This document shows, one piece after another, positions 2,407 through 22,090 of a DNA stretch of 64,000 nt. This DNA is from a virus. The position numbers and the translations under genes were made by a program. Location of the stretch: positions 1 through 64,000 of the IMG/VR virus record IMGVR_UViG_3300044844_001686; one strand, written 5' to 3'. Numbering within the stretch: position 1 is the first letter of the stretch; every line of letters starts with the position of its first letter. The notes beneath the pieces are model-generated. The model searched no databases. It worked only from the letters and a program-made list of their open reading frames with translations, and was not told where the DNA came from.

Positions 2407-2976
2407 TTAAGAAGAAGTCTTATCTGTACTTCCAGTATTAGATTCCCACCATTGCATTGCGAAAGTTACGGAAAATCTTTCGATTTGGTCGTTTTGATCC
2501 CAACCCAAATTAATTGGAGAAATATCTACTGGAAAGCACTGGACCATTTTATATTCTGCTAGAATACCTTTACCGTCTTTACTATAATGTCTAACGTATC
2601 CATCTTTTTGGTAGTCGTTTGGTGTGATTTTTGCTGAATCTCTAACGTTTGCAACGTGACCATTCAATTTATTCATCCAACTTTCTAAGAAAAATCTTGG
2701 ACCGCTCTTGTAATCTTGCTCGTCAACTAGAATTTGAACGGTCCAATTATCGAACCTTCTATTACCAGCAAATTTCGCTTCTCTACCGAAAAAATATGCA
2801 GAAGCAGTACCAATACTAGAACCAGGAAGGGAAGTAGATTCTGCTCTTAATGTAAAGTTGTCTCCAACGTTTTCTGATTGAGCTTCAAAAGTGATGTCAA
2901 AAAGGTTAGGTCTGGCTCCATCAAAGGTCATGTTATTGACAAAAGTGGAAATGTTAAAAGGTTGGTAATTAGCCAT
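2407..2976 (-). CDS. 19: Tail tube protein (gp19)
   Basis: Hexamer-forming protein of the inner tail tube, through which DNA passes. The 189-aa length is near T4 gp19 (163 aa). The N-terminus has the family hallmark FVNNMTFDGARPNLFDITFE (12-31), followed by the loop FTLRAESTSLPGSSIG (41-56). The C-terminus has MVQCFPVDISPINLGWD and a final tube beta-strand, FSVTFAMQWWE. It lies between sheath gp18 and portal gp20 and is separated from gp18 by a terminator and its own late promoter. That fits independent high-level expression of an abundant structural protein. TTTCTCC upstream (GGAGAAA on the coding strand) is the ribosome binding site. Confidence 0.96.
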   Translation of the reverse strand: MANYQPFNISTFVNNMTFDGARPNLFDITFEAQSENVGDNFTLRAESTSLPGSSIGTASAYFFGREAKFAGNRRFDNWTVQILVDEQDYKSGPRFFLESWMNKLNGHVANVRDSAKITPNDYQKDGYVRHYSKDGKGILAEYKMVQCFPVDISPINLGWDQNDQIERFSVTFAMQWWESNTGSTDKTSS

Positions 2977-3010
2977 CTTATTTCTCCTTGGAAATGTAAA
3001 TATTTTTAAG

Positions 3011-3018
3011 TATTTATA
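3011..3018 (-). promoter_or_regulatory. T4-type late promoter for gp19
   Basis: Exact TATAAATA on the minus strand, immediately after the gp18 terminator and about 35 nt before the gp19 start codon. Confidence 0.85.
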
Positions 3019-3041
3019 ATAATCTTAATTTACGTCAAATA

Positions 3042-3065
3042 AAAAGGGGTCCTAAGACCCCTTTT
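3042..3065 (-). terminator. Rho-independent terminator after gp18
   Basis: A perfect hairpin with arms GGGGTC (3046-3051) and GACCCC (3056-3061) and a 4-nt loop, extended by four A:T pairs on each side. On the minus strand it ends in a T-run. It lies 20 nt after the gp18 stop codon. It is the clearest terminator in the window and could also work from the other strand. Confidence 0.88.
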
Positions 3066-3084
3066 ATTATTATTCTAATTTATG

Positions 3085-4875
3085 TTAGAATTGTCCTACA
3101 ACTGTATTAAAGTCCACACCAGTTTTTACTGCAACAAAGTTTAATTGGATAAAGTTGATGCTTCTTGCTGGTTTAATATAGATATCACCAACAAAAGCGT
3201 TTCTATCAATAATATCTGAAGTATTATTGGTTTCGTCACAAACTACTCTAAATGCGGTAATACCCCTTCTTGCTTGTACTGAACGTAGGTATGGTTCAAT
3301 TAAAGCGACGAATTGTGATCTAGTGAACGGATCGTTAAATTCAAATAGGCTGAATTTTGCTGCTCTAGAAATAGATTTTTCAAGAGTAATGAATAATCTA
3401 CGAACATTAATTCTATCGAACGCAGAAGGTTTTCTTTGTAGAGTTTTATCTCCAAGAAGGACAACCCCATCACCAGTAACAGAAACTACTGGATTGATTC
3501 CATTCTTATATAATTCGTCTCTTTGTGTTAAATTAGGATTCCAAGCAAGCTTTACTGCATTTTTAACTTTACCTCTATTAAATCCAGCAGGAGAATACCA
3601 AGGATCAGCAACAGAATCGGTATACGCGCAAAGCCCTGCAATATCTGCGTTTAATGGAATCCAACGGTAAACATTATTATAGCGGTCGTATTGGTACTTC
3701 CAACCAGAATCCACAACCATATAAGAAGAACTTCTATTCAAGACGTTTAAGAAAGAAAGGTTGTTTGTTACTATATTATCGACTTCAAATCCTGATTCGT
3801 TTAATACGTCTCCTATGCGAGGAGATACAAATAACATACAATCTTTTCTTCCGATAATTGGGGTTTCGCCGCTAGTTCCAAGAATAATATTGTCTAATAC
3901 GTGTTGCGCGACAATTGGTGTCGCGTCATTATTTGGTGCTGCTGCGCCTAGAAAAGCCAAAGAAATTTCATACTTATCTTTATCGTTGATTAAATCCCAA
4001 GAAGAAGTAACGTTTGCAGTCGTTGGGGCGACACCATCAGACCCACCATTTAATGTCACATTAAAGTTAATGGGTGAATCATAAGAAACAACGTCTGAAG
4101 AAAGTTTTCCCCAAGTATTGGCTGTATTTGCATAATCTGGGTTGTCTAACACATACAAATAATTCGATGATTGTAGCAAAACGTTTTTGAAATAAGAACT
4201 TCTTCCGTTAATATCTACTGCATCTTTTGCTTTTGATAAAAATGCAAATTTTTCAAGGATTGTATTAGCTTTACCAGACATTTTCCCCAAACTGTCGATA
4301 ACAATCATATGGAATTCGTCATTGGCAGAGTAATTTCCAGTCGTTTCTGCGACATAAGTTGATGTTCCTGGAGCGTTATCGAAATAGTTCTTATAAGACC
4401 AAGAAGAAAAACCAGCAGAATTTGCGCACAAAGAAATTTGAAGTCCATTGGCAATTTTTCCGGGATATTTTGCTACAAAGTCGCCGTATAAGAATTCATT
4501 ATTAGCATTTAAATAATTATTTTCGTATGCGTCTTCGTTGGAAATTAAAATTTTATTTGCTGTTCTGTCTGTTGAGGCATTTAATGCGCTATTTGCGTTA
4601 ATAGTTCTTGTTACATACAAAGAATTTGTATAAGACAAAAAGTTTGCACAAGAAAAGAAAGAAGTAGCAACATAAGAATCTGAAGTTTCTGTTGTGGGTT
4701 TTCCAAAAACCGATAGTAATTGCGTCTCGTTAGAAATGAGCACTGGTTGATTAACTGGTCCCCAATTGAATTCCCCAACGAATGCTCCTACAGAAGTAGA
4801 TACTCCAGGAACGATAGTAGTCAAATCTACTTCGTTTACTTGAATTCCTGGGGATAACATATTTAAAACACTCAT
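3085..4875 (-). CDS. 18: Contractile tail sheath protein (gp18)
   Basis: Sheath subunits surround the tail tube and contract during DNA injection. The 596-aa product is somewhat shorter than T4 gp18 (659 aa), as in many marine T4-like phages. The N-terminus reads LSPGIQVNEVDLTTIVPGVS (7-26) followed by GAFVGEFNWGPVNQP, the classic sheath start. The C-terminal handshake region holds LFITLEKSISRAAKFSLFEF (about 495-514), FNDPFTRSQFVALIEPYLRS, and then GDIYIKPARSINFIQLNFVA near the end. An SD (AGGAGA) precedes the ATG, and a late promoter lies at 4910-4917. A strong terminator follows. Confidence 0.97.
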   Translation of the reverse strand: MSVLNMLSPGIQVNEVDLTTIVPGVSTSVGAFVGEFNWGPVNQPVLISNETQLLSVFGKPTTETSDSYVATSFFSCANFLSYTNSLYVTRTINANSALNASTDRTANKILISNEDAYENNYLNANNEFLYGDFVAKYPGKIANGLQISLCANSAGFSSWSYKNYFDNAPGTSTYVAETTGNYSANDEFHMIVIDSLGKMSGKANTILEKFAFLSKAKDAVDINGRSSYFKNVLLQSSNYLYVLDNPDYANTANTWGKLSSDVVSYDSPINFNVTLNGGSDGVAPTTANVTSSWDLINDKDKYEISLAFLGAAAPNNDATPIVAQHVLDNIILGTSGETPIIGRKDCMLFVSPRIGDVLNESGFEVDNIVTNNLSFLNVLNRSSSYMVVDSGWKYQYDRYNNVYRWIPLNADIAGLCAYTDSVADPWYSPAGFNRGKVKNAVKLAWNPNLTQRDELYKNGINPVVSVTGDGVVLLGDKTLQRKPSAFDRINVRRLFITLEKSISRAAKFSLFEFNDPFTRSQFVALIEPYLRSVQARRGITAFRVVCDETNNTSDIIDRNAFVGDIYIKPARSINFIQLNFVAVKTGVDFNTVVGQF

Positions 4876-4909
4876 TTTTATCTCCTATTATAGTGTAAAT
4901 TGATATAAT

Positions 4910-4917
4910 TATTTATA
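4910..4917 (-). promoter_or_regulatory. T4-type late promoter for gp18
   Basis: Exact TATAAATA on the minus strand, about 35 nt before the gp18 ATG. The leader also carries AGGAGA at 4881-4886. Confidence 0.85.
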
Positions 4918-4929
4918 AAATTGAGCGTT

Positions 4930-6141
4930 TTAAAAATCTAACATATCCTTTAAAATAAGTTTATATGGGTCTGGGTCAGACGTTTCTATCCAAACGGAAT
5001 TACCTTCTACAAAATGTTCAAATTTTAATCCGTTGTCTAATTCGCCCAAAGGTAGTTGGTCTTCTTCAGAAAAGTTAAAATGTTCTAACTGAAGTTGTTT
5101 TCTGAGGTCGTGATCTACTATTTCTTTAAACATTTTTTGTGTTGCCAACCAACCAAATATGACCAAAGTCATAGCAAGATCGTCGTTTGCCCCTTCTTCG
5201 GCTTTATATGAAGGACCGTCTTGCACAAATGTTGTTAATTCGGATATAGTTTCAAAATCTTGTATAACCAATTTATCCGTTTCGACTAGGGTTTTTAGAG
5301 TAGAACAACCAATACGTTTAACTAGTGGGCTCATTTTTAATCCCATAGCAACGTTTCTACCTCCGTATAAACATAATGTTTGTGCTCGCTTATTACCAGA
5401 AGAAACCTTTAATACGTTTTCATATTCTAAATCTTCAATTAAAACGTCTGCTATTTGTGGATTATTATTTACTTCAATTAATACATGAGCGTTATTATAA
5501 TATTCAGCACACATTTTAAGAACAGTTGGGTATAACATTGGAGGTATTGCGTTATTTCTATAAACAGCAACTTGCTTATAAGGCATAGTTGAAACGTCAA
5601 AAACAGAAAACGCAGAATAATCTAAATTTTTACCTTCTGAAACGTCTACAGTCATTGCGTATAAATGATCTCTAGTTAATAACTCTCCAGTATCCTCATC
5701 ATAAAATTCTTTTATAGGGTCTTCATAAACTATCATATCCGCATATTTTTTTAATGATTCTTTATATGCTATTGTAGCCAGTTTTTCGCCAGATATGAGG
5801 GTGTTTGTTGAACCCAGGAAATCACAATTGTGAGAAATGACGTTGTTAGTAAAATATGTTTTATACGTTCCAACAGATATAGGTTCATATACATCAAAAA
5901 TTCCGTTTTCTGTTACTATATCTTTTATTTTTTTGTTTGTTATCGTGTTTTTTAGAGTTATATTTTTGGCTTCTAAAAATCCGATGTCAGTTAAAAATTT
6001 GTGACCTCCAGAACACTTTATTGATTCCCCGTCTTCAAAAATAAAAGTATATAATATATTAATTTTTTTATTTTGTATACCCTTAAAGGATTCAAACCCT
6101 AAAGGGGTTTTTATTAAATATCTATTATTTTCTTTAAACAT
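4930..6141 (-). CDS. 17: Large terminase gp17, C-terminal half with C-intein
   Basis: 403 aa. Residues 1-105 are the C-terminal part of a split intein. Residues 106-403 are the nuclease half of the packaging motor, beginning CDFLGSTNTLIS. Metal-binding nuclease residues are visible as D166 in MTVDVSEG, E223 in HVLIEVNNN, and D320/D321 in GANDDLAM. The ATPase half is encoded separately at 6750-7637. The two halves must be joined by protein trans-splicing to give a roughly 562-residue terminase (T4 gp17 is 610). The ATG overlaps the end of the HNH gene by 8 nt and has no clear SD, so translation is probably coupled to that gene. Transcription is likely from the late promoter at 6725-6732. Confidence 0.93.
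   Translation of the reverse strand: MFKENNRYLIKTPLGFESFKGIQNKKINILYTFIFEDGESIKCSGGHKFLTDIGFLEAKNITLKNTITNKKIKDIVTENGIFDVYEPISVGTYKTYFTNNVISHNCDFLGSTNTLISGEKLATIAYKESLKKYADMIVYEDPIKEFYDEDTGELLTRDHLYAMTVDVSEGKNLDYSAFSVFDVSTMPYKQVAVYRNNAIPPMLYPTVLKMCAEYYNNAHVLIEVNNNPQIADVLIEDLEYENVLKVSSGNKRAQTLCLYGGRNVAMGLKMSPLVKRIGCSTLKTLVETDKLVIQDFETISELTTFVQDGPSYKAEEGANDDLAMTLVIFGWLATQKMFKEIVDHDLRKQLQLEHFNFSEEDQLPLGELDNGLKFEHFVEGNSVWIETSDPDPYKLILKDMLDF
5827..6141 (-). other. C-terminal fragment of a split intein (105 aa)
   Basis: Residues 1-105 of the downstream terminase fragment. It contains a block B-like GGHKFLTD (45-52), a block F region around DVYEPISVGTYKTYF (83-97) and a block G ending VISHN (101-105), followed by Cys106 as the +1 nucleophile. 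It starts unusually early, just after where block A would end, so the N-fragment is very short. This layout and several motifs (LGFESFKGIQ, IFEDGESIK) resemble, from memory, the atypically split AceL-TerL intein from Antarctic lake metagenomes. No inteins were aligned here. Confidence 0.92.
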
Positions 6142-6697
6142 TTTTTATTATTTGCAAAATTCTAGTATCAGTAACATTATAAATTTTAGAATAATATTCT
6201 GCAAAAGCTTTTTCGTATGTTAATTTTTTACCATTTTTTTGCGTTTTTCCTATTCTGTCGTCTTCTATAAAAATTCTATCTTTATAGTTTTTTATAATTA
6301 CCCTTACATTTTCTTCTGATATTTTTCTAGGTTTTGCTTGATTTTGTTTTTGCTTTCCTTCTTCAGTTAAATTCAATTTATATCCAGTTAAACCTTTGTT
6401 CCAAGGTTTGGTTCCCTTTTTAACGCCACCTATTCTCGGTCTCTTAACACCTTTCTGTATCTCAGAAATATAATTTGGAGGTAAAGACATGCGTTTTGCT
6501 ATCATAACACAAGCTCCATAATCTCCATTTTTATAGTGTATTTCATAATGTTCTTGAATACTAACGCACAATAAATTGTTTATATCGTTATTTGACTTAT
6601 TACCGTCTATATGGTGTATTTCAAAAGTTCTTCCGTTATCATCAAAAGGGATTTTCCCAAAACGATTTTCCCAAATTTTTCTATAATTATCGCACAT
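6134..6697 (-). CDS. Free-standing HNH homing endonuclease inside the split terminase gene
   Basis: A 187-aa predicted DNA-cutting homing enzyme. The HNH core is EIHHIDGNKSNND (about 26-38) followed by NNLLCVSIQEHYEIHY (about 40-55), giving the His-His-Asp/Asn/His metal and catalytic set. A NUMOD-like DNA-binding motif follows at GVKKGTKPWNKGL (about 92-104), and the C-terminal half is basic. It lies exactly between the two terminase halves, has its own late promoter at 6725-6732, and overlaps the C-half gene by 8 nt. It is not fused to the intein, so the arrangement is a fractured gene rather than a standard intein with an embedded endonuclease. Its natural target is probably the intein-free terminase gene. 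This is inference. Confidence 0.9.
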   Translation of the reverse strand: MCDNYRKIWENRFGKIPFDDNGRTFEIHHIDGNKSNNDINNLLCVSIQEHYEIHYKNGDYGACVMIAKRMSLPPNYISEIQKGVKRPRIGGVKKGTKPWNKGLTGYKLNLTEEGKQKQNQAKPRKISEENVRVIIKNYKDRIFIEDDRIGKTQKNGKKLTYEKAFAEYYSKIYNVTDTRILQIIKNV

Positions 6698-6724
6698 ATT
6701 ATGAACTATATTTCTAAAATATAA

Positions 6725-6732
6725 TATTTATA
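6725..6732 (-). promoter_or_regulatory. Late promoter inside the fractured terminase locus
   Basis: Exact TATAAATA on the minus strand, between the stop codon of the terminase N-half (6750) and the HNH start (6697). It would drive both the HNH gene and the terminase C-half. Confidence 0.8.
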
Positions 6733-6749
6733 AAGCAAAAAAGTCTTAA

Positions 6750-7637
6750 TCAAACAAAATCTTCGTAAAAATCTTTTATTGGTATAGATATTGTTTGATT
6801 TGTTTTTGTGTCTAAAATTTCTATTAAAGTTTCTCCATGAACGCATTCAAATTCTTGTTGCCATTGCCGTAGCGAAGTATTCTTGATTGTTTGTTCTTTA
6901 AACTTTTCGTCTCTTCCGGGAACCATTCCCCAATGGATACTAAAAGTTTTATATTCACTTCTTTTTGATACAGCATCAGTCCACATTTTATAAAACAAAT
7001 TCATACCGTTTGGAGTAGAAACAATAATCATCTTAGTTGTTTTACCAGAAGATATTACTGGATAAACAGATGTGAAGAAATTTTCTGCTATATTAGAAGG
7101 AACGAATGCAAATTCGTCCAAAAAGACACATGTGAAAGAGCCACCACGTATGGCGTTTGAAGAAGTAGCAGACGCCAATACTTTCGAACCGTTTTCTAAT
7201 TCAATAGAACCTTTATTCCAAACTCTAACTCCCTGTTGTAACCAAATAGGCAAGTTTTCATATGCGAGTTGGTATCTATCGAGAATTTCTCTTGCTAGGT
7301 CGCCTTTGTTTGCTAGGATTGCTATGTTTTGATCGTCATTGAATAAAGTCATCCAAAGAATGTACGCCACAGAAGAAACTGTTTTTCCCACCTGACGAGG
7401 ACACTTAACAATACTAAAACGGTTTTCGTGAAACGTTTTAATCATGTCTTTTTGGAAATCCCACATATTAAAAGGAATAACGCCTTTATCTACATGGACC
7501 ACTTTTACATAATTTTGGATGAAATATATTGGATCAGACGCGCATTTAATATATTCTTCTACTTGCTCCTGAGTAAACTCTATTTGTATTCCTTCACGCT
7601 TGAGCTGTGGATTAGCTCTATAAGAAGACTCTATCAT
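6750..7637 (-). CDS. 17: Large terminase gp17, ATPase half with N-intein
   Basis: 295 aa. Residues 1-264 are the ATPase half of the DNA-packaging motor: Walker A CPRQVGKT (79-86), Walker B VFLDEF (171-176) and the coupling motif IIVSTPNG (204-211). At residue 265, directly after QQEFE, the sequence changes to CVHGETLIEI, an intein N-terminus, and ends 31 residues later. The gene therefore stops before the nuclease domain, which is encoded at 4930-6141. It begins 3 nt after the gp16 stop codon and no strong SD is seen, so translation is probably coupled to gp16. The insertion site lies in a conserved terminase segment, as is usual for inteins. Confidence 0.95.
   Translation of the reverse strand: MIESSYRANPQLKREGIQIEFTQEQVEEYIKCASDPIYFIQNYVKVVHVDKGVIPFNMWDFQKDMIKTFHENRFSIVKCPRQVGKTVSSVAYILWMTLFNDDQNIAILANKGDLAREILDRYQLAYENLPIWLQQGVRVWNKGSIELENGSKVLASATSSNAIRGGSFTCVFLDEFAFVPSNIAENFFTSVYPVISSGKTTKMIIVSTPNGMNLFYKMWTDAVSKRSEYKTFSIHWGMVPGRDEKFKEQTIKNTSLRQWQQEFECVHGETLIEILDTKTNQTISIPIKDFYEDFV
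6753..6845 (-). other. N-terminal fragment of a split intein (31 aa)
   Basis: Residues 265-295 of the upstream terminase fragment. Block A is CVHGETLIEI with catalytic Cys265. The remainder (including IPIKDFYEDF) ends in a stop codon. Canonical split inteins have N-fragments of about 100 residues, so this one is atypically short. Its partner is encoded at 5827-6141. Confidence 0.92.
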
Positions 7638-7640
7638 AAT

Positions 7641-8084
7641 TTAATTTTCGATAATTTTTTCTTTTGAATTTAGATCTTTGAGCATTTTGCTTAATTCTGT
7701 CGTACTACCAACAAATAAAGCATTATTGATTGTGGTTTTTTCTTCTTTTTGATTTTTGTAATTAGAAATATCTCTTACTTTTTTATGTATATCTAATAAT
7801 TGTTGGTTTGCGTCCAATACGTTTTTAAGCAAATTTGCAGCAACTTCAAAATCCCTTCCTTTTTCGCTTTCCCTTGCGATAGTTAATATATCTTGTACTG
7901 CGTCTTTACCAACCTCAATCAATTCGTGAAAATTTTCCCTGGCTGTTTCGTAGTCTTTCTTTAAATCTACGTCTAGAGTTTCATGGGGTATTGGTTCTGA
8001 AGAAGAAATTTTCTCTGGAAGGTTGTTGGGTTCAGATGGAGCAACTTCAAAAAAGTTTTCCATTTTTTCATCAAATTTGCTCAT
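7641..8084 (-). CDS. 16: Small terminase subunit (gp16)
   Basis: Recognises DNA and regulates the gp17 packaging motor. The 147-aa length is near T4 gp16 (164 aa). The acidic, disordered N-terminus (residues 1-40) is followed by a helical core: DYETARENFHELIEVGKDAV (about 44-63), ESEKGRDFEVAANLLKNVLD (about 72-91) and LLDIHKKVRDI (about 96-106). The core matches the coiled-coil oligomerisation region of this family. The C-terminus is short and charged. It sits directly upstream of gp17, as in T4, and 8 nt after gp15. Confidence 0.93.
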   Translation of the reverse strand: MSKFDEKMENFFEVAPSEPNNLPEKISSSEPIPHETLDVDLKKDYETARENFHELIEVGKDAVQDILTIARESEKGRDFEVAANLLKNVLDANQQLLDIHKKVRDISNYKNQKEEKTTINNALFVGSTTELSKMLKDLNSKEKIIEN

Positions 8085-8092
8085 AATAATGT

Positions 8093-9112
8093 TTATGTAA
8101 CGTATTCTGTAATAGATAGTTCTGGTTGCCAGTAAGAATTAGCGTTTGCTGTATTCGGGGATACCGTAATTGTTTTTGTGAACGCTATCATATCGTTTGA
8201 TGTGGCAGAAATTGGTACGTGAATAGAAAGAGAATCTGTTCCTACTATTGGTTGATTAAGTTTGAAATTGCCCATAATATCGGTAATATAAACAGTATTA
8301 GAATTTGCATTCCAATCCCCAACCTTACCAGTAGCATACGCCAAATCGTATTTTTGTCCCTGATAAACCCATTCTCCATTTATATAGTCGCCATATCCGT
8401 CGGGGTCCACATTAAAAGATTTTGATCCATTTGGATTACAAGAAGTACCGATTCCAGAATCGAAAGAACCACCAATACCAAATAAGAAATTTTCGTTTAC
8501 TTCTTTGATGATAGGAACATCTTTAACTGCCCCAAATATAAACCCTTTAGCTGTAAAACTCAAAGTCCAAATTACTGTTCTTACTTCTGTATTAAACATC
8601 CCATCAGATTCTATAATTAATCTAACGTCGTTTAAAACAATAGGTATTACTTTAGTTATACCCATTTCTGGTACTAAAGTAACTCTTAAAGAATAATCTG
8701 GGGTAAAGTATGGAAGGATTTGTTCTATAATTTGATTTCCATCTTCAACATTTCTGGTATATATTGTCAATCCAAAATTGAAATCGTAAGGAACCGGATT
8801 ATATTGCATAAACGCTTTATCTGCATTATCCGGATTTGAAGAGAAATTTTTATTGTTTGTATTTAATTTTCTATCCTTATCATAATTAAACCCAACCATC
8901 TCATAAGACATTCTAGGTAAAAGGACTTGGACTTTTTTATCCAATTCTGGATCGCCTTGCAACCTCTTAACAAATTTTTCTTTATCTCCATATTCTATAG
9001 GAACAACGATTCTTTGGTTATTGTCCCTAATTAATACTATATTATTAAATATTGAAGCAAACGCAGAAGTGATTTTGCGGACACATTTATGATAATGGTT
9101 TATTGCGGTCAT
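8093..9112 (-). CDS. 15: Tail completion and sheath stabiliser protein (gp15)
   Basis: The terminator hexamer that caps the tail tube and sheath and binds the neck. The 339-aa product is longer than T4 gp15 (272 aa). The N-terminal half has conserved family segments: HYHKCVRKITSAFASIFNNI (6-25), LPRMSYEMVGFNYDKDRKLN (about 65-84) and YNPVPYDFNFGLTIYTRNVE (about 104-123), and then ILPYFTPDYSLRV. The extra length is a C-terminal beta-rich domain (about 230-339) rich in Asn, Ser and Thr, including a YINGEWVYQGQKY segment. It starts at ATG 9112 in a TAATG overlap with the gp14 stop codon, so the two are translationally coupled. Confidence 0.95.
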   Translation of the reverse strand: MTAINHYHKCVRKITSAFASIFNNIVLIRDNNQRIVVPIEYGDKEKFVKRLQGDPELDKKVQVLLPRMSYEMVGFNYDKDRKLNTNNKNFSSNPDNADKAFMQYNPVPYDFNFGLTIYTRNVEDGNQIIEQILPYFTPDYSLRVTLVPEMGITKVIPIVLNDVRLIIESDGMFNTEVRTVIWTLSFTAKGFIFGAVKDVPIIKEVNENFLFGIGGSFDSGIGTSCNPNGSKSFNVDPDGYGDYINGEWVYQGQKYDLAYATGKVGDWNANSNTVYITDIMGNFKLNQPIVGTDSLSIHVPISATSNDMIAFTKTITVSPNTANANSYWQPELSITEYVT

Positions 9113-9984
9113 TATAATATTCCAAATGGGTTACTTTCCGAAGTATCTATTACTGTATCGCTAATATCTTCAATAACCTTATTATCCCAACCGTCTCTAA
9201 TTTGAGGGTTATCCAATTCATCAAAATTCTGTATAGAGTAATTTGCTCCGGATTCAGAACCAATAACGTTTAAATCAGAATCAAATATACCAGACATATT
9301 GGTAACTTTTAAAGTTTTTGTTGGAGCGTTCCAATTTTGTACTGTGGCGAAACTTGTTGGTGAACCTACCGGACCTTGATATGCTAATTCGTTGACTTTA
9401 AAGTTGCCAGTACCAGTATCCAATATATAATCAATAGCAAAAGAATTAACTTGTTCAACAACGTCTATCTCTTCTACCCCCGTATTCATATCTTCATGAG
9501 AATATTTGAATAATTCTAGTTCAAGTTCCCAATAATATGGCTGTTTTCTACCCAAAGTGAAATAGTCTGTGGCGTCGTTGGTATATTTAATTTCATATAA
9601 TTCGCCAGTACCAGACAAAAATGGAATATACACTAAATCCCCTTCCTTTGGTCTGGTGTGGGTATCTTGAGGTACTCTTTTAGCAAATGCTCTTCTAGGC
9701 ACTTGAATTCTAATTGTATTTTTAATTTCTAGCCCGAATTTAGAAAAGAAATCGTTGTTCATGCCGGGATCTACAGAATTTGTTAAATACACTTCCATAG
9801 GGTATGCAGCATCAAATTTCTTTAACGGGTCATCGCCATAAAGTAGATCAGATACAGCAGCTTCATTTCTGGGTATGTAATAACAATCAAACCCGAACAT
9901 CTTAACTGCCTCGTGAATTAAATCTTCTACGAGGTTTTGTTCTGGTCTATTCTTATAGAAATCGAAATATGGGTTTGTTGGCAT
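9112..9984 (-). CDS. 14: Neck protein (gp14)
   Basis: Head completion/neck protein that joins the filled head to the tail. The 290-aa length compares with 256 aa for T4 gp14. Family segments are LVEDLIHEAVKMFGFDCYYI (18-37), a neighbouring PRNEA, then YPMEVYLTNS and FFSKFGLEIKNTIRIQVPRR. These are followed by an OB-like stretch with GDLVYIPFLSGTGELYEIKY. A 60-70 residue Asn/Thr-rich tail carries the extra length. The gene lies 6 nt after gp13 and overlaps gp15. Confidence 0.95.
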   Translation of the reverse strand: MPTNPYFDFYKNRPEQNLVEDLIHEAVKMFGFDCYYIPRNEAAVSDLLYGDDPLKKFDAAYPMEVYLTNSVDPGMNNDFFSKFGLEIKNTIRIQVPRRAFAKRVPQDTHTRPKEGDLVYIPFLSGTGELYEIKYTNDATDYFTLGRKQPYYWELELELFKYSHEDMNTGVEEIDVVEQVNSFAIDYILDTGTGNFKVNELAYQGPVGSPTSFATVQNWNAPTKTLKVTNMSGIFDSDLNVIGSESGANYSIQNFDELDNPQIRDGWDNKVIEDISDTVIDTSESNPFGIL

Positions 9985-17015: not shown

Positions 17016-18698
17016 TCAATTTTTTGTTTTTAGTTCATCTATCTGTATTTTCTGTTCTTTTAATGCTTCTATTAATAACGGTACTATTTTTGAGTATAGT
17101 ACGGTTAAATATTTTTCTCCAGAAATACTATGTCCATATTTATTAGAATCAAAAGGGGCAATTTTTACTGCTTCTGGTAGCACTTCTTGTATTTCTTGTG
17201 CTATAAATCCTATTTGTCTTGAAGAGTCTTTATATCCAAATGAATTAGCTAATTCGTTTTGTTCGTAATATACACCATGTATTTTACTTATCTTTTCTAA
17301 ACAATTGTCAACATTTCCTAAAACTTGTTTTAATCTTTTATCAGAATAATATGCAGTAATTTGTCCAGTTGCTCTTATTTCTCCTGTTGTTCCTGCTATA
17401 GTATTAACTCCTAGTGCTGTAACTTCAGTTACCACATTGCTAGCCGCTCCTTGTACTCCTTGAGGACCAGTAGCACCAACTGCCCCCTGTGCTCCCTGTG
17501 GACCCTGTGGACCTTGAACTCCTTGTCTGCCTTGAAATCCTGCAATTGAACTAGCCGCTCCTTGAACTCCTTGCGGTCCAGTAACACCAACTGCCCCCTG
17601 TGCTCCCTGTGGACCTTGAGCGCCTTGGAATCCTTGCCTACCTTGGAATCCTGCTATTCCAGCAACTCCTTGAGGACCAGTAGCACCTACAGCGCCTTGT
17701 GCTCCTTGAGCGCCCTGTGGACCTTGAGCGCCTTGGAATCCTTGTCTACCTTGGAATCCTGCTATTCCAGCAACTCCTTGAGGACCAGTAGCACCTACAG
17801 CGCCTTGAGCGCCTTGTGGTCCTTGTGGACCTTGAGCGCCTTGAAATCCTTGTCTACCTTGGAACCCCGCAATCGAACTTGCAGCACCTTGTACTCCTTG
17901 AGGACCAGTAGCACCGACAGCACCCTGAGCGCCTTGAGCACCTTGAAATCCTTGTGGACCTTGGAACCCTGCCACCCCTTGAACTCCTTGTGGTCCGGTA
18001 ACGCCAACTGCCCCTTGAGCGCCTTGTGGACCTTGTGGACCTTGCGCTCCTTGAAATCCTTGTGGACCTTGAAATCCTGCTACCCCTTGAATGCCCTGTG
18101 GTCCAATAGCACCAACTGCGCCTTGAGCGCCTTGTGGTCCTTGTTGACCTTGAGCGCCTTGGAATCCTTGTGGACCTTGGAACCCCGCAATCGAACTTGC
18201 AGCACCTTGTACTCCTTGAGGACCAGTAGCACCGACAGCACCCTGAGCGCCTTGAGCGCCTTGAAATCCTTGTGGACCTTGAAATCCTGCTACCCCTTGA
18301 ATGCCCTGTGGTCCAATAGCACCAACTGCGCCTTGAGCGCCTTGTGGACCTTGTGGACCTTGAGCGCCTTGGAATCCTTGTGGACCTTGGAACCCTGCCA
18401 CCCCTTGTATGCCTTGTGGACCAGTAGCACCAACTGCGCCTTGTGCTCCCTGTGGACCTTGTGGACCTTGAGCGCCTTGAAATCCTTGTGGACCTTGGAA
18501 TCCTTCTACTCCTTGAACTCCTTGTGGACCAGCAGCACCCACAGCACCCTGAGCGCCTTGTGGTCCTTGTGCTCCTTGTGGTCCTTGTGATCCGGAATAG
18601 CTTGAAGCGGGACCAGTCCAAATGCCTTCTGATGAAATTATTTCATTTAGATTTATAGATATGCCATTTTTTACAACGAAATTATTATTAGCTGCCAT
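17016..18698 (-). CDS. Collagen-like tail fibre with S74 chaperone domain (copy A)
   Basis: 560 aa. A short N-terminal domain ([20 protein letters not shown], about 10-29) is followed by about 385 residues of Gly-X-Y triplets, mainly [18 protein letters not shown] and GRQ. The triplet run is interrupted three times by SSIA. The C-terminal 125 residues form an intramolecular chaperone of the Peptidase_S74 type: YYSDKRLKQ with the Ser...Lys self-cleavage pair, then [20 protein letters not shown] and a final coiled coil [16 protein letters not shown]. The chaperone normally trimerises the fibre and cleaves itself off. It overlaps copy B by 11 nt. Prolines occur only at the X position. Confidence 0.92.
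17439..18600 (-). repeat. Collagen triplet repeat tract, copy A
   Basis: 9-bp triplets combine into longer units of roughly 60-100 bp that recur with few changes, for example the block ending in the SSIA interruption. Long near-identical stretches are shared with copies B and C, which favours recombination. Confidence 0.9.
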
Positions 18699-20397
18699 AT
18701 TTTATTTCTTTTATTAATAAATCTATTTCTTTTTGTTGTTCTTTTATAGTTTCTATTATTAATGGAATTAATTTTTCATAATTAACCGTTAATAAATTTA
18801 AACCTGTGATGCTATTGTGATTTTCATCAATATCAAATGGTGCTAATGCAACAGCTTCTGGTATAATTTTTTGAACTTCTTGTGCTATAACTCCTATTTG
18901 TTTGCTATAATCTTTATATCCAAAGGTTTCTGCAAACTTATTTTGTTTATAAAAAATTCCATTTAATTGATATAATTTTTCACTAGCATTTTTTATAGAT
19001 TCTATATTATCTTTTAACCTTATGTCAGAATAATACGAAGTTATGTTTCCGGTTGCTCTTATTTCTCCTGTTGGTCCTGCTGGGGTTCCAACTCCTAACG
19101 CAGTTACTGATGTTTGCAAAACATTAGATATCCCTTGAACGCCCTGCGGACCTTGTGGACCTTGGACTCCTTGTCTACCTTGGAATCCTGCTATTCCAAC
19201 TGCTCCTTGAACTCCTTGTGGTCCAGTAACGCCAACTGCACCTTGTGCACCTTGTGGTCCCTGTGGACCTTGGACTCCTTGTCTGCCTTGAAATCCTGCA
19301 ATAGAACTTGCAGCACCTTGAACTCCTTGTGGTCCAGTAACGCCAACTGCTCCTTGTGCGCCCTGTGGACCTTGTGGACCTTGGACTCCTTGTCTGCCTT
19401 GAAATCCTGCAATAGAACTTGCAGCGCCTTGAACTCCTTGTGGTCCAGTAACGCCAACTGCTCCTTGTGCGCCCTGTGGACCTTGTGCGCCTTGAAACCC
19501 TTGTCTGCCTTGAAATCCTGCAATAGAACTTGCAGCACCTTGAACTCCTTGTGGTCCAGTAACGCCAACTGCACCTTGTGCACCTTGTGGTCCCTGTGGA
19601 CCTTGGACTCCTTGGACTCCTGTTACGCCGATTGCTCCTTGAACTCCTTGAGGACCAGTAATACCAACTGCTCCTTGTGCGCCCTGTGGACCTTGTGCGC
19701 CTTGAAACCCTTGTCTGCCTTGAAATCCTGCAATAGAACTTGCAGCGCCTTGAACTCCTTGGGGTCCAGTAGCACCGACAGCACCTTGTGCTCCCTGTGG
19801 TCCTTGCGCTCCTTGGACTCCTTGTCTACCTTGGAATCCAGATATGCCAACTGCTCCTTGAATTCCAGCGTTTCCAGTAGCACCAACTGCACCTTGTGCA
19901 CCTTGTGGTCCCTGTGGACCTTGGACTCCTTGGACTCCTGTTACGCCGATTGCTCCTTGAACTCCTTGTGGACCAGTAGCACCGACAGCACCTTGTGCAC
20001 CTTGTGGACCTTGTGCGCCTTGAAACCCTTGTGGACCTTGGAACCCTGCAATAGAACTTGCAGCGCCTTGAACTCCTTGGGGTCCAGTAGCACCGACAGC
20101 ACCTTGTGCTCCCTGTGGTCCTTGCGCTCCTTGAAATCCTTGTGGACCTTGGAACCCTTGTCTACCAACAACCCCTTGTATGCCTTGTGGTCCTGTAACT
20201 CCCGCAATTCCTTGAGACCCTTGTGGTCCTTGTGCTCCTTGTGGTCCTTGGAATCCTTGAACGCCTTGAAATCCTTGTGGTCCTTGCGGACCTTTTATGT
20301 TCGTTGTAGAAGCAATCCAAACAGAGTTGTTGGAAATAACTGAAGTATTTCCAACAACTAATCCATTTTTTATTATTAGTTTAGATTGTTCTGCCAT
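18688..20397 (-). CDS. Collagen-like tail fibre with S74 chaperone domain (copy B)
   Basis: 569 aa, with the same plan as its neighbours. The N-terminal domain ([20 protein letters not shown], about 8-27) is followed by about 385 residues of Gly-X-Y triplets with several SSIA interruptions. The C-terminal S74 chaperone has [30 protein letters not shown] and the coiled-coil end [20 protein letters not shown]. It lies 4 nt after copy C and overlaps copy A. The three copies differ mostly in the order of repeat blocks and in the chaperone. They could form homotrimers or mixed trimers, which the sequence cannot decide. Confidence 0.92.
19126..20292 (-). repeat. Collagen triplet repeat tract, copy B
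   Basis: Tandem 9-bp triplets arranged in larger blocks, several of which recur almost identically within the tract (for example around 19280-19600). Confidence 0.9.
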
Positions 20398-20401
20398 CTG
20401 A

Positions 20402-22090
20402 TTAGTTTCTTAATGTTAAAAGTTCTTTAATTTGCTTTTGTTGTTCTTTTATAGCTTCTACTATTATTGGAATTAATTTTTCATATTGTACTGTTATGTA
20501 ATTTTCCCCAGAAATGCTATTTCCATCGGAATCCGTATCAAAAGGAGCAGGTTTAACTATTTCAGGAGCAAAAGGTTTTATTTGCTGTGCTATCAATCCT
20601 ATTTTTTTACTATAATCGTTATATCCAAACTTTTCTGCTAACTTATTTTGAGTAAAATAAATTCCACTTATACTTAATACTTTTTCTAAACAATTTTCAA
20701 TTTTGTTTATATTTTTCTTTAATCTTTGATCTGAGTATGCTGCTATGATATTTCCAGATGCTCGTATTTCTCCAGTTCCGCCAAGTGCAGCATTTACTCC
20801 TAATGTACTAAGATTATTGGCAGGAATTATTAAATTTGCTCCTTGGAATCCTTGTCTGCCTTGGAATCCTGCTATTCCAGCAACTCCTTGAGGACCAGTA
20901 GCACCTACAGCGCCTTGTGCTCCTTGTGCTCCTTGCGGACCTTGTGCGCCTTGGAATCCTTGTCTGCCTTGGAATCCTGCTATTCCAGCAACCCCTTGAG
21001 GACCAGTGGCGCCAACTGCTCCCTGTACGCCTTGTGGTCCCTGTGGACCTTGGACTCCTTGTCTACCTTGAAATCCTGCTATTCCAACTGTCCCTTGAAC
21101 TCCTTGCGGTCCAGTAGCGCCAACAGCACCTTGTACACCTTGTGGTCCCTGTGGACCTTGGACTCCTTGTCTACCTTGGAATCCTGCTATTCCAATAGCA
21201 CCCTGAACTCCAGTATTACCAGTAGCACCAACAGCGCCTTGAACGCCTTGTGGTCCTTGTGGTCCTTGTGCGCCTTGGAATCCTTGTCTTCCTTGAAATC
21301 CTGCTATTCCAGCATTACCAGTAGCACCTACAGCGCCTTGTGCTCCTTGTGGACCAGTAGAACCTTGAAACCCTTGTCTGCCTTGAAATCCTGCTATTCC
21401 AATAGCACCTTGCACACCAACATTACCAGTAGCACCTACAGCGCCTTGTGCTCCTTGTGGTCCAGTAGAACCTTGTATTCCTTGTCTACCTTGAAATCCT
21501 GCTATTCCAATAGCACCTTGCACACCAGCATTACCAGTAGCACCAACTGCTCCCTGAACTCCTTGTGGTCCCTGTGGACCTTGTGTGCCTTGAAACCCTT
21601 GTCTGCCTTGGAATCCTGCTATTCCACTATTTCCAGTAGCACCAACTGCTCCCTGAACGCCTTGAGGACCAGTAGAACCTTGTATTCCTTGTCTACCTTG
21701 AAATCCTGATATTCCGATAGCGCCCTGAACTCCAGCATTTCCAGTAGCACCAACCACGCCTTGTACGCCTTGAGGACCAGTAGAACCTTGAACGCCCTGC
21801 CTACCTTGAAATCCTGCTATTCCGATAGCACCCTGAACTCCAATATTACCAGTAGCACCCAAAGCACCTTGTACGCCTTGAGGACCAGTAGAACCTTGTA
21901 CTCCTTGTCTACCTTGGAATCCTGCTATTCCAGTAAATCCAACATTTCCAGTTATCCCAATATTTCCTTGAAATCCTTGATCTCCGGTTATATTTGTTGA
22001 TGGACCTACCCAATGACCAGTTGAATTTGCGACAAGAGTATCCCCAACAATTAATCCGTTTTTTATTTCAAAGGGTTTATTTGTTGCCAT
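20402..22090 (-). CDS. Collagen-like tail fibre with S74 chaperone domain (copy C)
   Basis: 562 aa. The N-terminal domain ([20 protein letters not shown], 7-26, then WVGPS) matches copies A and B and is probably the attachment end. The triplet region is of another flavour: GSTG, GNAG, GNVG and GAIG blocks alternate with [10 protein letters not shown], and there are no SSIA breaks. The C-terminal S74 chaperone has [29 protein letters not shown] and the end [20 protein letters not shown]. It is the first collagen gene of the operon and follows the 206-aa fibre protein gene by 1 nt. The promoter is probably the one at 22743-22750. Confidence 0.92.
20838..21984 (-). repeat. Collagen triplet repeat tract, copy C
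   Basis: Units of about 90-100 bp encode GATGN(A/V/I)[13 protein letters not shown]-type blocks repeated many times, with an A/B-like segment at the C-terminal end (around 20840-21010). Confidence 0.9.

Follow-up and report, generated by a model that had tools for sequence, protein, structure and literature searches.

The terminase large subunit gene (terL) of a T4-type phage lies at positions 4930-7637 on the minus strand of a 64,000-nt stretch of IMG/VR record IMGVR_UViG_3300044844_001686 (the window, whose numbering is used unless another contig is named). It is divided into two genes with an HNH endonuclease gene between them, and the locus is very probably a homing cassette, that is, a class-1 split intein of 31 and 105 aa with a homing-endonuclease gene at its split. 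In the window, this reading draws on gene anatomy, homology, intact catalytic residues and conservation; among relatives of the locus, precise presence and absence as well as horizontal transfer of such cassettes are observed. The element is an ordinary member of a widespread family of mobile cassettes, and the picture of mobile split TerL cassettes as a family is what is new, as far as the literature that we examined allows.

A split intein and an HNH gene within terL

On the minus strand, the ATPase half with the N-terminal intein fragment (IntN; 7637-6750) is followed by the HNH gene (6697-6134) and then by the C-terminal intein fragment (IntC) with the nuclease half (6141-4930), the first 8 nt of which, with its ATG, coincide with the final 8 nt of the HNH gene. 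The parts of the locus are the following.

6750-7637, minus strand: TerL N-half open reading frame (ORF), 295 aa, made up of a 264-aa ATPase extein ending QQEFE and a 31-aa IntN
6846..7637, minus strand: N-extein, the TerL ATPase half, 264 aa (Terminase_6N, E 4e-23; alignable with intein-free TerL)
6753..6845, minus strand: IntN, 31 aa, CVHGETLIEILDTKTNQTISIPIKDFYEDFV, starting CVHGETLIEI with the catalytic Cys1 (aligned with 106 other IntN, with an identical extein junction)
6734..6748, minus strand: 15-nt box TAAGACTTTTTTGCT at the position of the C-extein-start copy in relatives, a putative homing-site mimic; degenerate, 8/15
6725..6732, minus strand: T4-type late promoter TATAAATA of the HNH gene (motif scan)
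6134..6697, minus strand: free-standing HNH endonuclease gene, 187 aa (Pfam HNH_3, E 1e-11)
4930-6141, minus strand: TerL C-half ORF, 403 aa, made up of a 105-aa IntC and a 298-aa nuclease extein
5827..6141, minus strand: IntC, 105 aa, ending NNVISHN, with block-B His47, penultimate His104 and Asn105 (match to CatC of 6dsl; AlphaFold2 model)
4930..5826, minus strand: C-extein, the RNase H-like nuclease half, 298 aa, starting CDFLGSTNTL (Cys+1), plus the stop codon (Terminase_6C, E 1e-6)

In a comparison with the PDB, IntC matched CatC, the solved consensus TerL split intein (6dsl), over the whole IntC length (E 4e-15); IntC starts at Met9 of CatC, and the alignment runs from there to the splice point. 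An AlphaFold2 model of IntC alone, built from 59 relatives, had a predicted local distance difference test (pLDDT) score of 84, and its best structural match was again 6dsl (template modeling [TM] score 0.81), with other inteins next. G15, H47 and N105 are invariant in the 59 IntC relatives, H104 is kept in at least 90% of them, and the residues expected of a class-1 intein (C1, H47, H104, N105 and C+1) are all present in the window. The Pfam model Intein_splicing also matched (E 1.7e-4, under that model's cut-off). IntN was assigned from its extein junction, the family alignment and its partner IntC. Joined, the two exteins give 562 aa that align without a gap through QQEFE|CDFLG with the intein-free TerLs of L009 and L018 (52% and 59% identity). 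Thus, the break lies at a natural site compatible with an intein-free enzyme, and trans-splicing should repair it.

The first-pass annotation, made from the letters and ORFs of this DNA, had described terL as two genes with a 564-bp HNH gene between them, a 31-residue N-intein starting CVHGETLIEI directly after QQEFE, and a 105-residue C-intein ending VISHN and followed by Cys. All three ORFs were found where it had placed them, with the intein fragments at the ends described. Its further statements that both catalytic ends of the intein are intact and that the split is of the atypical kind agree with the residues and the CatC match given above, and, of the ATPase motifs, which it described as kept, CPRQVGKT and VFLDEF are both present in the N-extein.

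The host protein is a T4-type terminase large subunit by Pfam (Terminase_6N/6C) and by PHROG (terminase large subunit). The flanking genes, small terminase at 7641-8084 and tail sheath at 3085-4875, retain the usual T4 order gp16-gp17-gp18 around the locus. Among contigs near-identical to the window, single-nucleotide polymorphisms (SNPs) were concentrated in the tail tube and sheath genes (about 2500-4300, minus strand; up to 71 per 500 nt), which suggests recombination between strains, and were almost absent from about 4.5-10 kb. Contig L147 is near-identical to the window over 6.3-17 kb and strongly divergent from about 17.5 kb on. Farther along the minus strand (17016-22090), three adjacent genes of ~560 aa match collagen-like tail-fibre families.

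A family of cassettes at one terL codon

Relatives were collected by two DNA-pattern scans of IMG/VR, both biased by their patterns, and from cultured phages, and family counts are therefore counts among the matches listed. At least 107 distinct split TerL inteins lie at exactly the terL codon interrupted in the window, and a contiguous intein was found in at least six further distinct loci. IntN measures 24-37 aa in nearly all of the listed split inteins, HN directly precedes the splice point in 106 of 107, and the nucleophile pairs are Cys1/Cys+1 (73), Cys1/Thr+1 (21) and Ser1/Cys+1 (13). Between the halves lies a GIY-YIG gene in 43 cases (one uncertain), an HNH gene in 29, a PD-(D/E)XK gene in 11, a nuclease-less DNA-binding protein in 3 and nothing in 21. 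The PD-(D/E)XK group consists mostly of Ser1 inteins and includes one short relic and two incomplete loci; the three members scanned (L047, L050 and L020) matched DUF559/MTES_1575. The intervening gene of L020 (7300-8175) encodes a series of repeated CapR/zinc-ribbon modules and, behind them, a PD-(D/E)XK-like domain (MTES_1575).

Movement of cassettes can be seen directly in pairs of relatives. L053, with a PD-(D/E)XK cassette, and L372, without one, differ at the site by a precise 1,536-bp insert, flanked by DNA that is 99.0 and 99.5% identical, and their TerL proteins are 100% identical; similar present/absent pairs exist for GIY-YIG cassettes (L116/L459 and L051/L355). L086 and L121 have exteins that are 97% identical, inteins that are just 40-45% identical, and different nucleases. 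L196, the nearest TerL relative of the window by tree path, likewise combines a 91% identical N-extein with a different intein (31-34%). Nuclease class changes 32 times on the extein tree and 21 times on the intein tree, both being quick trees that are not fully resolved. At silent sites, the HNH cassettes of L213/L228 have diverged by 0.05-0.06 versus 0.19-0.30 for their exteins, and those of L025/L046 by 0.06-0.53 versus 0.97-1.67; silent-site analysis also indicated purifying selection on nuclease genes and intein halves.

Loss of the nuclease has left traces as well. Nuclease-less split loci keep the tail end of the lost nuclease between their halves (VSDQYIYRIITRKSK in L159, VHNNYVYQIITKKI in L194, and further relics in L042, L052, L055 and L101), with no match as good in 60 shuffles for any of these six. 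L110 has no gene between its halves (gap -13) and a 25-aa IntN, which we take to be the IntN of AceL-TerL; its supposed nuclease relic is statistically weak, as 9 of 60 shuffles score as high. In the contiguous inteins of L103 and L226, the N-part runs straight into the 3' remnant seen after the HNH gene of a close relative, L125, and because they share this remnant they look like inteins re-fused after nuclease loss. Read from sequence, this decay series appears to be the homing cycle described for inteins (PMC1654191) in split form. Collectively, the present/absent pair, the younger cassettes at silent sites and the nuclease relics support a homing cassette.

The HNH protein, its late promoter and a target-like box

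The window HNH protein consists of an HNH head (about residues 1-82) and a conserved C-terminal domain (about 83-187) with the motifs GGVKKGTxPWNKG and NG..(S/T)Y...F, given for the 187-aa protein itself as GGVKKGTxPWNKG...NG..xY..AF. H28, H29, D31, N36, N37, N41, H50 and H54 are invariant in 26 relatives, and the HNH motif is intact. The gene has no second copy in the 73.7-kb record and evolves under purifying selection (e.g., nonsynonymous divergence dN 0.12 and synonymous divergence dS 0.85 for L146/L197). Over 85 aa the head is 54% identical to a T4-like 'intron-associated endonuclease 3'. The fractured genes of Dassa 2009 reportedly introduced a new Vsr/EDHL-like endonuclease family, to which the window endonuclease, by its HNH_3 match, does not belong. 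By BLAST, the window HNH protein is joined to nearly all of the GIY-YIG proteins through residues about 83-187 only (down to E 1e-19). The same domain occurs without a recognisable nuclease head in the intervening proteins of L151, L178 and L210, a single conserved clade whose members are perhaps still functional as binding proteins. By sequence, then, the nuclease head appears to have been swapped while the presumed DNA-reading tail was kept. A fold search with a model of the HNH protein (predicted TM score 0.45) gave no significant match, nor did the HNH family profile against the PDB.

The first base of the late promoter TATAAATA lies 35 nt upstream of the HNH ATG. The motif is not above chance in the window by total count (18 versus 13 expected); it is meaningful there because 13 of 17 minus-strand sites fall in the 90 nt preceding a gene start, and these zones together cover 6% of the window. 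The TerL C half has no TATAAATA of its own, and the late promoter that the first-pass annotation ascribed to the locus therefore holds for the HNH gene and not for the C half. That annotation had also singled out this locus for combining a very early split with an adjacent HNH gene and a late promoter, a combination that is not peculiar to it. The IntN of 31 aa is indeed short, but the split falls at the same place as in the AceL, GOS and Cat TerL inteins (IntN of 25-37 aa), and HNH genes with a promoter are common in the family: TATAAATA stands upstream of the nuclease ORF in 22 of the 29 HNH loci and in 37 of 42 GIY-YIG loci, where about 0.5 and 0.7 would be expected.

Just before TATAAATA, most HNH and GIY-YIG loci have a 15-nt sequence resembling the start of their own C-extein (TGTGAGTTTTTAGGA = CEFLG). 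The best matches end 1-2 nt from the promoter in 41 of 59 loci, versus 6% in a shuffled control. GIY-YIG loci match this box at a mean of 10.8 of 15 positions (8.5 for shuffled queries), with 20 of 42 individually reaching p<0.01, and HNH loci at a mean of 9.6 (8.1 shuffled), with merely 2 of 29 doing so; PD-(D/E)XK loci gave no box signal, and the window box, at 8/15, is not significant. The first codon of the box follows the host gene, with TG in 31 of 31 Cys+1 loci and in 0 of 13 Thr+1 loci, a figure that relatedness inflates. In T4, the late promoter of I-TevI carries an operator that resembles the homing site and through which the enzyme represses its own synthesis; comparable putative operators are described for I-TevII and I-TevIII (PMC2988022). 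By analogy with I-TevI, autorepression of the nuclease through the target-like box is a good hypothesis for the family, the main alternative being that the box is a mere relic of insertion. A hairpin of the I-TevI kind, hiding the start in read-through RNA, is absent from the window (z +1.0) and was rejected as a general feature, being strong in a few loci (L021 and L089) and weak as a class.

Proposed mechanism, alternatives and known systems

The cassette is split after its first short segment (S2), as in AceL, GOS and Cat TerL. We propose that the two precursors meet, with IntN docking on a partly folded IntC, and that Cys1, the block-B His, the penultimate His, Asn105 and Cys+1 then ligate the exteins to give a normal terminase of 562 aa. 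Late expression of the HNH protein would come from its own TATAAATA promoter, and translation of the TerL nuclease half would begin at the ATG that lies within the 3' end of the HNH gene. At the QEFE|CDFLG junction of an intein-free terL, the HNH protein would bind and cleave the DNA, whereupon repair would copy IntN, HNH and IntC into the cut gene. This protein may also repress its own gene through the target-like box beside the promoter; for the window, we infer this step less firmly than splicing or terL cleavage, and it is the weakest of the scheme. Extended to the family, the scheme becomes more tentative, and we give it almost, although not quite, an even chance. Cassettes would replace one another at a single terL codon, carrying at the intein break either interchangeable HNH and GIY-YIG heads on a shared tail or an unrelated PD-(D/E)XK gene. 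Later deletion of the nuclease would leave behind relics and mini-inteins, either split or re-fused; a full homing cycle would thus be represented, and laboratory tools of the AceL-TerL kind would be nuclease-less descendants. The tail would recognise about 15 nt at the beginning of the C-extein, a copy of which beside the late promoter would provide self-repression.

Several observations weigh against a homing cassette in the window. IntN alone, too short to be recognised, found no intein match in the PDB. Among the matches listed, the window terL has no near-identical intein-free sister, the best being 63% identical. Mobility is seen in relatives and not in the window copy itself, and the near-identical present/absent pair has a PD-(D/E)XK gene rather than an HNH gene. 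A recent homing sweep in the window population was considered and rejected, since SNP density among eight contigs carrying the locus is not lowest at the cassette only.

Other explanations of the arrangement fare worse. Phage enzymes that are split by endonuclease insertion and yet functional do exist (cited in PMC10448857), and the intein could be dead and the TerL halves work as a non-covalent complex, like the split NrdA of a T4-like phage. This is improbable, however: the class-1 catalytic residues are kept in the window and in nearly all of the 107 listed relatives, purifying selection acts on the intein halves, and splicing would yield a protein that matches intein-free TerL exactly. Alternatively, the HNH protein might be a packaging partner of the terminase rather than a homing endonuclease, as proposed for the terminase-adjacent HNH protein of HK97; HNH genes in this position can act with terminase in cos cleavage (PMC10448857). 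We consider this more improbable still, because a needed factor would not be so exchangeable, whereas relatives have GIY-YIG, PD-(D/E)XK, a nuclease-less protein or nothing in the same place, and relics of the lost gene persist in nuclease-less loci.

It is very unlikely that a group I intron carrying the HNH gene occupies the gap and is spliced out of the RNA, although T4-like phages often have HNH genes in introns and the named proteins most closely related to the HNH head are designated intron-associated endonucleases. No Rfam intron match was found in 3000-9500, and both intein halves with intact ends flank the HNH gene; excision of that gene alone from the RNA would leave a contiguous intein, of which there is no sign. 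The metagenomic source also invites the thought of a chimera assembled from two phages, and the first-pass annotation had named an assembly artefact among its own concerns. The same locus occurs on at least eight other IMG/VR contigs (L001-L008), whose sample numbers differ and whose sequences, where compared, are 99.89-100% identical. Because eight contigs carry it, it is not an assembly error, and dozens of divergent relatives share the gene order; the chance of a chimera is negligible.

Naturally split inteins are prized tools, but direct evidence has been scarce on how an essential gene comes apart and why it stays so. The family offers snapshots of several stages, namely, an intact gene, a split with a nuclease, a split with a nuclease relic, and a re-fused intein. 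More than 100 natural split inteins, mostly with N-fragments of 24-37 aa and among them a Cys1/Thr+1 group, become available as possible labelling tools, and the family yields a concrete prediction of the DNA that these nucleases read.

Parallels occur in cultured phages. TerL is split at the terL site of the window in Vibrio phages Va1, VP-1 and 1.244; unlike in the window, a GIY-YIG nuclease is fused to IntN in VP-1 and 1.244, and a Vsr-like nuclease lies in front of IntC in Va1. VP-1 (L013, 1846-5188) has two TerL inteins, a contiguous one in Walker A (QSGK|C...HN|TT) and the split one with its IntN-GIY-YIG fusion. In Shigella phage JK32 (L015, 2239-5350), the split lies instead at Walker B (DE|C...HN|CAF); the annotation lists each half as a 'terminase large subunit' gene, and a nuclease-like stretch is fused behind IntN. 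Several Escherichia phages have the same Walker B split, and Nitratidesulfovibrio phage SRB7757 (L017, about 3176-5300) shows its unsplit counterpart, a contiguous mini-intein at Walker B of an otherwise intact TerL ORF. Campylobacter phage CP39 (L012, MH107028.1; record W01) encodes its two TerL parts on opposite strands (69027-69554, minus, and 93501-94829, plus), separated by about 24 kb; away from the ATPase half, the C half starts with an IntC that is spliced at Walker B (CAFIDKW). The arrangement resembles a split terminase whose parts have become dispersed, here in a cultured phage.

Among systems described in the literature, the split PolB intein of Pseudomonas jumbo phage MIJ3 likewise has an HNH gene between two host-gene pieces but concerns another host gene and a canonical split, with a long N-intein carrying blocks A to N4 (PMC6892783). 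I-TevI and I-TevIII of T4 share with the window a HNH or GIY-YIG head on a modular DNA-binding tail and a late promoter, and with many of its relatives a homing-site-like sequence overlapping or beside that promoter (PMC2988022), although the box of the window itself is weak and the T4 enzymes are located in group I introns, whereas the splicing element here is a split intein. The two genes of the locus, each joining an extein half to an intein half with a free endonuclease gene between them, have the layout of the fractured genes of Dassa 2009, in which, as cited in PMC6892783, the host gene is broken within the intein, a free endonuclease lies between, and the setting is phage or metagenomic. 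The window differs in that its endonuclease is HNH; a PD-(D/E)XK (DUF559/MTES_1575) nuclease does occur, however, in 11 of the listed relatives, mostly with Ser1 inteins. The AceL-TerL, GOS-TerL and Cat-TerL atypical split inteins (reviewed in PMC11766414; Cat structure, PDB 6dsl) share the host protein, an IntN of about 25-37 aa, an IntC of about 104-115 aa that begins at CatC's Met, Cys1 with Cys+1 (AceL and Cat) and Glu/Asp at +2. In contrast to them, the window has a 31-aa IntN, an IntC about 40% identical to that of the AceL-like L110, and an HNH gene between its halves.

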